Part shown: piece by piece, positions 2,701-4,575 of the stretch | Position numbering within the stretch: the first letter of the stretch is position 1 | Layout: every line of letters begins with the position of its first letter | Made by a program: the position numbers and the translations under genes | Notes under the pieces: generated by a model | What the model saw: the letters and a program-made list of their open reading frames with translations, nothing else | What the model was told of the DNA's origin: nothing | Database searches by the model: none | NCBI GenBank assembly: GCA_947455435.1 | Contig: CANGNZ010000003.1 | Location: 1-51,872 of the forward strand | Length of the DNA: 51,872 nt | Origin: Microbacteriaceae bacterium | GTDB lineage: Bacteria; Actinomycetota; Actinomycetes; Actinomycetales; Microbacteriaceae | Reading direction: 5' to 3'

Positions 2701-4431
2701 TTAGTTGCGAATTGCTCGGTTGACGCCAGAGATCAGGGCCTTGAGTGAAGCCGTCGCGATGTCGCCATCGATACCAACACCCCAGAGAGTGGTCGAGCCG
2801 ACTTCGAGTTCGATGTAGGCAGCCGCCTGAGCGTCGCCACCCTCGCTCAGTGTGTGCTCAACGTAGTCGAGAAGCTTGACCGATACACCCAACTTTCCAA
2901 GGACGTCGATGAACGCCGAAATCGGCCCGTTACCGGTTCCGGTCAGCTCGGTCTCGCCGGTTGCGTCGCGAAGCACTACCTCAAGGTTGACTACACCGTC
3001 CATGTCTGAGGCTGTGCGCATGCGCTTGAGTTCGAATCTGCCCCACTTATTGTTCGGGTCGGCGCTAGGAAGATATTCGTCGGTGAAGATTGCCCAGAGT
3101 GCTTCGCTGGTAACCTCACCACCGTCTGAGTCGGTCTTGTTCTGCACTACTCGCGAGAACTCGATTTGGAGTTTGCGAGGCAGATCTAGACTGTGGTCAG
3201 TCTTGAGCAGGTATGCGACGCCACCCTTGCCCGATTGCGAGTTCACGCGGATTACAGCCTCATAAGAGCGGCCAACATCTTTGGGGTCAATCGGTAGGTA
3301 AGGCACGGCCCAGACTAGGTCGTCGATGTCGACGCCCTTTTCGCCAGCCTCCTTGTGCATGAGCTCGAAGCCCTTTTTGATGGCGTCTTGGTGTGAACCA
3401 GAAAATGCCGTATAGACGAGGTCGCCGCCGTAAGGGCTCCGCTCGTGCACAGGCAGCTGGTTGCAGTACTCGACCGTGCGCTTGATTTCGTCGAGGTTAC
3501 TGAAGTCGATGTGCGGGTCGATGCCTTGGCTGAATAGGTTAAGGCCAAGTGTGACCAGGTCAACGTTTCCGGTGCGTTCACCGTTGCCAAACAAACAACC
3601 CTCGATGCGGTCGGCACCAGCCATGTAGCCGAGTTCGGCTGCCGCGACACCGGTTCCACGGTCGTTGTGCGGGTGAAGCGAAAGCAGAACGCTATCGCGG
3701 CGAGCCAGGCGGCGGTTCATCCACTCGATCGAGTCTGCGTAGACGTTTGGTGTAGCCATCTCAACCGTTGCGGGGAGGTTGATAACCATCTTTCTCTCTG
3801 GCGTTGGAGCGATTACCTCGATCACCTTGTTGCAAACCTCAAGCGCGTATTCGAGCTCGGTTCCGGTGTAGCTTTCAGGCGAATATTCGTAAAACACCTC
3901 TGTGCCAGGAACAGTTGATTCGAGCGACTTGCATTTTTCGGCAGCCTTTAAAGCGATCGCGGTGATCCCATCTTTATCCTGACCGAACACCACGCGTCTT
4001 TGCAGAACAGAGGTTGAGTTATAGAAGTGCACGATTGCCTTCTTTGAACCTCTAATTGACTCATAGGTTCGTTCGATGAGGTGGTCGCGAGCCTGGGTTA
4101 GAACCTGAATTGTGACGTCAACGGGAATGTGGCCGCCCTCAATGAGCTCACGAACGAAGTCGAAATCAGTTTGGCTGGCGCTCGGAAACCCAACCTCGAT
4201 CTCCTTGTAACCCATGTTCACCAAAAGCTGGAACATTTTGAGCTTTCGCTCAGGGCTCATTGGATCAATCAGCGCTTGATTGCCGTCGCGCAAATCAACC
4301 GCGCACCAACGAGGCGCATCGGTGATTCGTTTTGTCGGCCACGTGCGATCTGGCAGATCTACGACTATTTGTTCGTGAAAAGGCTGGTACTTGTGCACCG
4401 GCATTTTTGAAGGTTTTTGGGTGTTTTCCAT
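2701..4431 (-). CDS. leuA: 2-Isopropylmalate synthase
   Basis: Catalyses the committed step of leucine biosynthesis: acetyl-CoA plus 2-ketoisovalerate to 2-isopropylmalate. The 576-aa protein is the long actinobacterial LeuA type. It has RDGNQ at residues 48-52, the metal-binding HPHND segment near residue 270, and a C-terminal LeuA dimer/allosteric domain from about residue 430. I chose the ATG at 4431 rather than an upstream in-frame codon at 4470, because AGGAG lies eight bases before it and the protein then begins [18 protein letters not shown], as expected for the family. The gene is preceded by a leader peptide and a structured leader. It sits between era and recO on the same strand. 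Confidence 0.95.
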
Positions 4432-4438
4432 TTGATTC

Positions 4439-4528
4439 GCTCCTGGTAAAAAAGTTTGGTCTAGCCGCAAATACTCACCGCAGCGAGGAAGGCCGGTTTA
4501 GGCCTCGCCGCGGCTACTAAGCAGGAGC
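4439..4528 (-). promoter_or_regulatory. Predicted leucine-responsive leader of leuA (anti-Shine-Dalgarno pairing)
   Basis: Reading the minus strand, GCTCCTG (4528-4522, within the leader-peptide GAG-CTC-CTG codons) is a perfect 7-bp complement of CAGGAGC (4445-4439), which contains the leuA Shine-Dalgarno AGGAG. Between them are an 11-bp hairpin (4513-4503 with 4488-4478, one G-U pair) and an alternative 7-bp stem TAGCCGC/GCGGCTA (4516-4510 with 4468-4462). A T6 run at 4453-4448 is too far from a stem for a classic terminator. The likely mode is control of leuA translation. The position matches the LEU element, a conserved RNA structure reported upstream of actinobacterial leuA. Seen: the complementarities. 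Inferred: the switching. Confidence 0.75.
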
Positions 4529-4539
4529 TCGTAAGACAC
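4498..4539 (-). CDS. Leucine-rich leader peptide of leuA (13 codons)
   Basis: A GTG-initiated ORF reading MSYELLLSSRGEA, with three successive leucine codons (CTC, CTG, CTT) at positions 5-7, ending in TAA inside the leuA leader hairpin. It has no separate Shine-Dalgarno, but GTG lies exactly six bases downstream of a -10 hexamer, so it would be read from a leaderless transcript. A ribosome paused on the leucine codons would cover the bases that otherwise pair with the leuA Shine-Dalgarno. The peptide has no expected function of its own. It is a regulatory ORF by inference; translation is not proven by sequence. Confidence 0.7.
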   Translation of the reverse strand: MSYELLLSSRGEA

Positions 4540-4545
4540 CTCTTC

Positions 4546-4575
4546 AGGGTAGCCCTTAGAAACCGAGTTTGCCAA
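4546..4575 (-). promoter_or_regulatory. Promoter for the leuA leader, inside the era 3' end
   Basis: On the minus strand, TTGGCA (-35, 4575-4570) is followed by an 18-base spacer and TACCCT (-10, 4551-4546). Six bases later comes the GTG of the leader peptide, which would be about +1. The -35 matches five of six consensus positions. It gives leuA-recO-uppS-glyS a start site independent of the long upstream operon. Confidence 0.6.

Follow-up and report, generated by a model that had tools for sequence, protein, structure and literature searches.

A LEU element was named upstream of leuA in most Actinobacteria, in genomes that include Leifsonia xyli (Seliverstov, Putzer, Gelfand, Lyubetsky 2005, PMC1262725). 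It combines a leucine-rich upstream open reading frame (uORF), a conserved pseudoknot, an alternative hairpin, and a base stem formed by the leucine run and the Shine-Dalgarno (SD) box. That study covered about 20 genomes and leuA upstream regions only, plus a copy within a transposase gene, and its authors, who doubted attenuation owing to mutants of S. coelicolor, did not settle on a mechanism but favored a protein regulator. Here, we analyzed a 51,872-nucleotide stretch of Microbacteriaceae DNA (contig CANGNZ010000003.1; hereafter, the window), in which a minus-strand leuA is preceded by such a leader. This feature is a LEU element: it lies upstream of an actinobacterial leuA and has a leucine uORF, a base stem between codons and SD, a pseudoknot, which is probably identical to that of the 2005 study, and an alternative hairpin that shares the base stem. 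The initial annotation of the window had suggested that the double role of the leucine codons (sensor and anti-SD) might be undescribed; the pairing of the leucine run with the leuA SD is already in PMC1262725, and the idea of a novel class of element was rejected on that ground. Unlike the earlier study, the present one used about 300 leaders to test reading frame, leaderless spacing, and covariation, and it also located the module before leuC and leuB in relatives. Judging from these sequence comparisons, the LEU element most likely acts as a leucine-responsive translational attenuator, a reading that we hold with modestly better than even confidence.

Leaders with the same gene and peptide layout, called leuL, are known from S. 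lividans (MRFGLLLLSCRGEGL), C. glutamicum (MTSRANLLLLRRGGSQRS), and C. diphtheriae (MNRANLLLLRRGGSQA) (PMC8709942, PMC8079986, PMC5784534; these and all PMC papers below other than PMC1262725 are cited from excerpts). In the passages concerned, the peptides are described as attenuator leader peptides, and SD pairing is not discussed. The S. lividans leader, leuL1, was mapped as leaderless (PMC8079986), leuA leader peptides are listed also in PMC4046766 and PMC3890552, and a ribosome-protected uORF precedes leuA in M. abscessus (PMC4974804). Two other systems are close in design. The leaderless poly-cysteine small open reading frames of mycobacteria (Canestrari et al. 2020) likewise carry a run of the sensed codon, and ribosome speed on them controls translation of the next gene (PMC9031893, PMC13236596); they sense cysteine, whereas LEU leaders would sense branched-chain amino acids. 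The transcription attenuator of the M. tuberculosis ilvB operon also places a uORF rich in branched-chain amino acids before a branched-chain operon, but it has a U-tract terminator and a 166-nt leader (PMC13236596), and LEU leaders generally lack such a terminator.

Direct reading of the minus strand bore out the layout proposed in the initial annotation, namely TTGGCA and TACCCT hexamers 18 nt apart, six further nucleotides to a GTG, a 13-codon open reading frame with Leu-Leu-Leu, and an 11-bp hairpin, one pair of which is G-U (Table 1). The uORF reads GTG TCT TAC GAG CTC CTG CTT AGT AGC CGC GGC GAG GCC TAA. The claimed perfect 7-bp match was also present: GCTCCTG, spanning the Glu-Leu-Leu codons, exactly complements CAGGAGC, which contains the leuA SD. 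When the 111-nt leader was folded, the minimum free energy structure contained competing stem B and the centroid contained hairpin A, and the base stem between codons and SD was common to both. In the ribosome-free leader, the SD paired with the leucine codons at a predicted probability of 0.93. The folding z-score was -2.2, with 6 of 200 shuffles equally stable. Taken alone, the 7-bp match of the window was within chance, as recoding of the leucine codons according to leuA usage equaled or exceeded the pairing in 10% of 200 trials; it is convincing only because of the comparison with relatives. The closest of these are Microbacteriaceae, some labeled Rhodoluna or Aquiluna. No Rfam family was assigned at the leader: the sole gathering-score match in the window was a tRNA, and three sub-threshold matches lay at 4380-4650. 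The genome of the window (89% complete) had one leuA match and one clear leader copy, the next match having an E-value of 0.54. The window leuA was assigned to NCBIfam NF002991/TIGR00970.

Table 1. Features of the leuA leader and flanking genes in the window.
Feature	Position	Strand	Basis or remark
-35 hexamer TTGGCA	4570-4575	minus	read from sequence
-10 hexamer TACCCT	4546-4551	minus	sequence; 6 nt (GAAGAG), then uORF start
Leaderless uORF (leuL), MSYELLLSSRGEA*	4498-4539	minus	GTG at 4539-4537 is the predicted +1
Leucine sensor codons CTC CTG CTT	4519-4527	minus	sequence and relatives
Anti-SD GCTCCTG, 5' side of base stem P1	4522-4528	minus	sequence, pairing comparison, folding
CAGGAGC with leuA SD, 3' side of P1	4439-4445	minus	sequence
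Hairpin A, 5' arm CCGCGGCGAGG	4503-4513	minus	sequence and relatives
Hairpin A, 3' arm CCTCGCTGCGG	4478-4488	minus	sequence and relatives
Hairpin loop GGCC, 5' side of pseudoknot	4491-4494	minus	alignment of relatives
GGCT, 3' side of pseudoknot	4463-4466	minus	alignment of relatives; 4 bp in the window, one G-U
TAGCCGC, 5' side of competing stem B	4510-4516	minus	sequence, folding
GCGGCTA, 3' side of stem B (7 bp)	4462-4468	minus	sequence, folding
leuA, 2-isopropylmalate synthase, 576 aa	2701-4431	minus	C-terminal LeuA_dimer domain; ATG at 4431-4429
Upstream gene with GTPase and KH domains	4556-5443	minus	domain matches

For the comparison, 338 leuA upstream regions were collected (80 from named contigs, 78 from genome searches, and 180 fetched stretches), of which 329 were distinct. 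A rule-based uORF search detected a leader in 308 of these 329, showing that the short open reading frame persists in relatives. Later counts are based on 307 leaders, 300 of which have at least 8 of 10 hairpin pairs. Among the 21 upstream regions missed by the rule, 14 still showed a leucine run beside the hairpin (including L264 and four of family f32), and for two others (L275 and L314) a covariance model of the leader core found the element in both genomes. No leucine run beside the hairpin was seen in three leaders of family f4, L119, and L245. The three leaders fetched from f4, a family of the same order (L255, L256, and L259), have a strong AAGGAGGA-type SD at leuA, with no LEU element found.

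The covariance model matched 142 of 148 genomes of the class at E <= 0.01, with a few of these matches being weak. In a draw from the phylum, 24 of 149 genomes matched, half of which belong to the class; the twelve matched genomes outside the class had E-values above 5e-4, except for G501 (8.8e-11). The strong LEU element in this genome (L373, G501:C191, family f63, which shares only the phylum) stands before a leuA of the NF002991 subfamily. It may reflect transfer or contamination.

We next consider the position of the uORF start. In 220 of the 307 leaders, the nearest in-frame start followed the end of a TAnnnT box by 6 nt (174 leaders) or 7 nt (46), with none at both spacings, so that, as in the poly-cysteine type of leader, the uORF starts at the predicted 5' end of the transcript. 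In the other two frames, the box occurred at such a spacing in only 1 of 137 and 2 of 96 leaders. The leucine codons and the -10 spacing, both put forward in the initial annotation for checking, are conserved. Starts anchored by the -10 box were in frame with the leucine run in 264 cases versus 3. When elements were located by nucleotides alone, with no start required, the ratio was 229 versus 2. Since the distance from the start to the leucines ranged from 2 to 12 codons, it is the frame, not the distance, that is kept. On the basis of its promoter spacing, the window uORF is probably leaderless as well, with the transcript beginning on its GTG.

Extra covariance-model matches in genomes of the class lay before other leucine genes. 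In Microbacteriaceae, a leader with an E-value below 1e-7 preceded leuC in 25 of the 30 loci fetched, which were the best-scoring among 57 leuC-bearing genomes (of 60). The sensor codons of these leaders were leucine codons, as in MLFGLLLLSCRDEA*. The genome of the window itself has leuC, and the covariance-model search of that genome found no leader before it. For leuB, which was present in 102 of 108 genomes, a leader was found in 8 of the best-scoring 30 loci. With the addition of further model matches, leuB leaders were read in 16 genomes of six families, one of them a weak match (L467, E 0.002); a seventeenth genome (G316) also matched the model at leuB. All 16 leaders read had Val or Ile among the sensor codons, which were VRIL, ALIL, VLIL, IFVL, LVIL, QLVLI, VYVLI, VFVLI, ILVVV, ALLVI, and QLVVI. 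At codons -5 to -3, Val or Ile occurred in 2 of 307 leuA, 0 of 28 leuC, and 8 of 8 leuB leaders, a contrast that is overstated because the leuA rule itself demands leucines. The hairpin and pseudoknot before leuB were still recognized by the same covariance model despite the changed codons. In 14 of the 16 genomes, ilvE lay within 250 nt of leuB; of the remaining two, it was not found in one and lay about 5 kb further on in the other. IlvE serves all three branched-chain amino acids. Val/Ile/Leu codons at this position would be easier to reconcile with a ribosome that reads tRNA supply than with an invariant contact between RNA and protein. Besides leuC and leuB, the leader was found before leuA genes of the TIGR00973 subfamily, in three genomes whose only match to the window leuA is a distant one (L370, L371, and L372), and before paralogous leuA genes with their own copies (L460, L463, and L375, the last called leuA by NCBIfam). 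The copy at L463 has TTVL in place of the leucine run.

These results bear on the proposal that a regulatory protein, such as the ML1624-type helicase suggested in 2005, or a ligand binds the LEU element, with the uORF incidental. PMC1262725 based the proposal on the S. coelicolor mutants and on how the element is distributed phylogenetically, and the high conservation of hairpin A and the pseudoknot is in its favor. However, a protein or ligand site would leave unexplained why start and leucine run share a frame so consistently, why the sensor codons shift to Val/Ile/Leu before leuB while hairpin and pseudoknot remain recognizable to the model, and why leuA of the TIGR00973 subfamily bears the same leader. 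We give this explanation very little credence. The frame constraint, the leaderless start, and the retuned codons suggest instead that the translating ribosome is the sensor.

In the literature searched, which was only partly aimed at this point and included few subscription papers, we met no mention of a LEU leader preceding leuC or leuB. The apparent novelty here is thus the LEU-type leader before these genes in relatives, with sensor codons that seem matched to the genes' products. A broader interpretation, which we regard as possible though slightly short of probable, is that LEU-type leaders form a modular, class-wide family of ribosome-read switches built on one hairpin-pseudoknot scaffold, the sensor codons being retuned to the product of the operon. 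The scaffold would then have been reused before leuA, leuA paralogues, leuC, leuB (mostly leuB-ilvE), and a stand-alone gene for the LeuA allosteric domain. At the leucine genes, the codon run would, with the same reserve, resemble the ribosome's own anti-SD. The latter is the CCUCCUU of 16S rRNA.

The base stem was examined in 283 leaders, after 10 of the 307 had been dropped for short spacing or fewer than 8 of 10 hairpin pairs and 14 duplicate pairs had been removed. Pairing of the leucine run with the SD of the same leader had a mean energy of -10.24 kcal/mol, versus -9.21 when SDs were swapped among all leaders and -9.61 when they were swapped within families; the value for own SDs was reached by 0 of 2000 permutations in both cases. 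Covariation of the two 7-mers, the test suggested in the initial annotation, therefore held against swapping but was weak once phylogeny was controlled (see below). In the leuC leaders (n=28), own pairing was likewise stronger (-9.43 versus -8.55 kcal/mol; 64 of 5000 permutations reached the own value). A fixed-register test of third bases, applicable to 95 of the 307 leaders, supported pairing at codon -5 (p 0.0006). Folding of 234 leaders with an assumed ribosome footprint of 31 nt gave an unpaired probability for the SD core of 0.23 in the free leader; the value was 0.49 when the ribosome occupied the leucine codons and 0.26 when it stood at the stop codon. Given the base stem, SD access is the likely output of the switch; we infer, from sequence, a device with the ribosome as sensor and SD access as output.

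Translational attenuation by the LEU element could operate as follows. Transcription would start on the GTG of the leaderless uORF, as the promoter spacing suggests. When charged tRNA-Leu is plentiful, ribosomes would translate as far as the stop codon, which lies in the hairpin A loop, and dissociate there. The leucine codons, then uncovered, are predicted to pair with the leuA SD, which agrees with the comparison among leaders, and would thereby close leuA. When tRNA-Leu is short, a ribosome would stall at these codons, which immediately precede hairpin A and the pseudoknot; it would cover the anti-SD and so allow leuA to be translated. In relatives, the module would be used with leucine codons at leuC and with a Val/Ile/Leu mixture at leuB, which mostly forms an operon with ilvE there. 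On the broader interpretation given above, the double use of the codons would explain why the leucine-codon mutants of S. coelicolor seemed paradoxical, as each mutation would remove the sensor and the lock together.

Several observations weigh against translational attenuation. According to PMC1262725, mutations of the S. coelicolor leuA leader had some effect that was inconsistent with classical attenuation, and elsewhere the same paper says that leader mutations do not influence regulation. Among 58 phylogenetically independent pairs, own pairing was the stronger in 32 and the weaker in 19, with 7 ties, which is modest support (sign test p 0.046, Wilcoxon p 0.035). The fixed-register test failed at codon -4 (p 0.56; A opposite C 10, opposite T 4), only 34 of 138 leaders beat synonymous recoding at p <= 0.05, and SD pairing in the leuB leaders was not significant (498 of 5000 permutations, n=8). 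In addition, codon -3 ends in a pyrimidine in 99% of CTN codons, yet its third base is predicted to pair with the SD less often (0.32) than that of codon -6 (0.38), where pyrimidine endings make up 20%. Lastly, short leuA leader RNAs of 85, 65, and 45 nt in M. tuberculosis (PMC3526491) point to premature RNA ends.

The codon bias invites a different explanation, in which pyrimidine-ending leucine codons are kept for one leucine tRNA that is scarce or sensitive to starvation, and the match to the SD arises largely as a side effect of using CTC and CTT. Pyrimidine-ending CTN codons made up 87% at -5 and 90% at -4, and CTC/CTT from -5 to -3 was far above the usage in leuA genes (42%). Any CTC CTT resembles an anti-SD, and the bias at individual codons departs from what the predicted SD pairing would give: third bases pair at 0.50 at both -5 and -4, so with the lower values at -3 and -6, SD pairing alone does not explain it. 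Codon -6, which pairs only somewhat less, was withdrawn as an internal control outside the stem. However, leucines at -6 were CTG in 92 of 125 cases, which is unexpected from a pure tRNA reason, and a leader's own SD fits better than a swapped one, within families too. We consider this explanation improbable.

Hairpin A and the pseudoknot were assessed over 79 diverse leaders, in which 91.9% of cells were paired versus 36-61% in slid versions, a score favored by the derivation of the structure from the same alignment. The hairpin had 98.6% of cells paired, and the helix between its loop and the downstream tail, that is, the pseudoknot, 80.4%. Changes on both sides were found in 12 of the 16 pairs, including 5 of the 6 pseudoknot pairs. 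The competing 7-bp stem described in the initial annotation is present, but that account was incomplete, as the downstream GCGGCTA segment can also pair with the hairpin loop and this pseudoknot covaries across the 79 relatives. Of 282 leaders, 241 had a strict complement of at least 4 bp between loop and tail and 91 had one for stem B, a difference due in part to chance because of the longer loop. On these counts, stem B was downgraded as the main partner of the downstream arm. Both the loop-tail helix (1 of 1000) and stem B (18 of 1000) beat within-family swaps. In the window, where the pseudoknot is only 4 bp, the 7-bp stem B is the stronger.

Another explanation is transcription attenuation, alone or together with translational control, in which hairpin A and the pseudoknot would end the RNA early, in a U-less or Rho-dependent manner, unless a stalled ribosome prevents this. 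It is favored by the short RNAs of M. tuberculosis. In the window, the end of hairpin A lies at +62 and that of the downstream arm at +78; among family f22 leaders, the hairpin ends at +64 in two of three measured, both with 13-codon uORFs, and at +76 in the third, and the M. tuberculosis bands could be ends at such structures. Papers on C. glutamicum also name the leuA leader as transcriptional attenuation (PMC4046766, PMC8709942). On the other hand, the terminator hairpin with U-tract of a classical attenuator was generally lacking, as a T5 run between the uORF stop and leuA was found in only 7 of 234 leaders. The six-T run of the window begins 8 nt past the nearest stem, and an intrinsic terminator using it was rejected given the rarity of T runs in relatives. 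The S. lividans leuL1 likewise has no typical terminator (PMC8079986), and transcription attenuation would leave the base stem between codons and SD without a function. We regard this explanation as unlikely, though worth serious consideration.

Neither the S. coelicolor mutants of 1999 nor the LEU paper of 2005 settled the way in which leucine is sensed at actinobacterial leuA. The retuned sensor codons before leuB and the class-wide in-frame uORF make the ribosome-sensor reading testable by simple reporters. The LEU leader also bears on amino-acid producers such as C. glutamicum, in which the leuA leader and promoter were replaced together to raise leucine output (PMC8709942).

Some minor observations were made at these loci. 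In the window, the 3' end of the upstream gene with GTPase and KH domains, which we take to be era, overlaps the -35 hexamer and part of the promoter spacer. Between the branched-chain leader and leuB, a small conserved open reading frame that ends in ALQEAMDRRDNGGETGH or a similar sequence, and whose shortest versions are about 30 aa long, was seen at L363, L364, L365, L366, L367, L368, L369, and L374; the one copy tested had no Pfam match. A LEU-type leader with the uORF MSRMLVVRRRSGV* stands before a stand-alone 131-aa gene (L459, G375:C3:792898, plus strand), the product of which matches the LeuA allosteric domain PF08502 (E 2.4e-6). Another, with the uORF MSWQKLLVTRRSGV*, precedes a stand-alone 144-aa gene (L461, G385:C1:417067, minus strand); its product has no Pfam match and by eye resembles that of L459.

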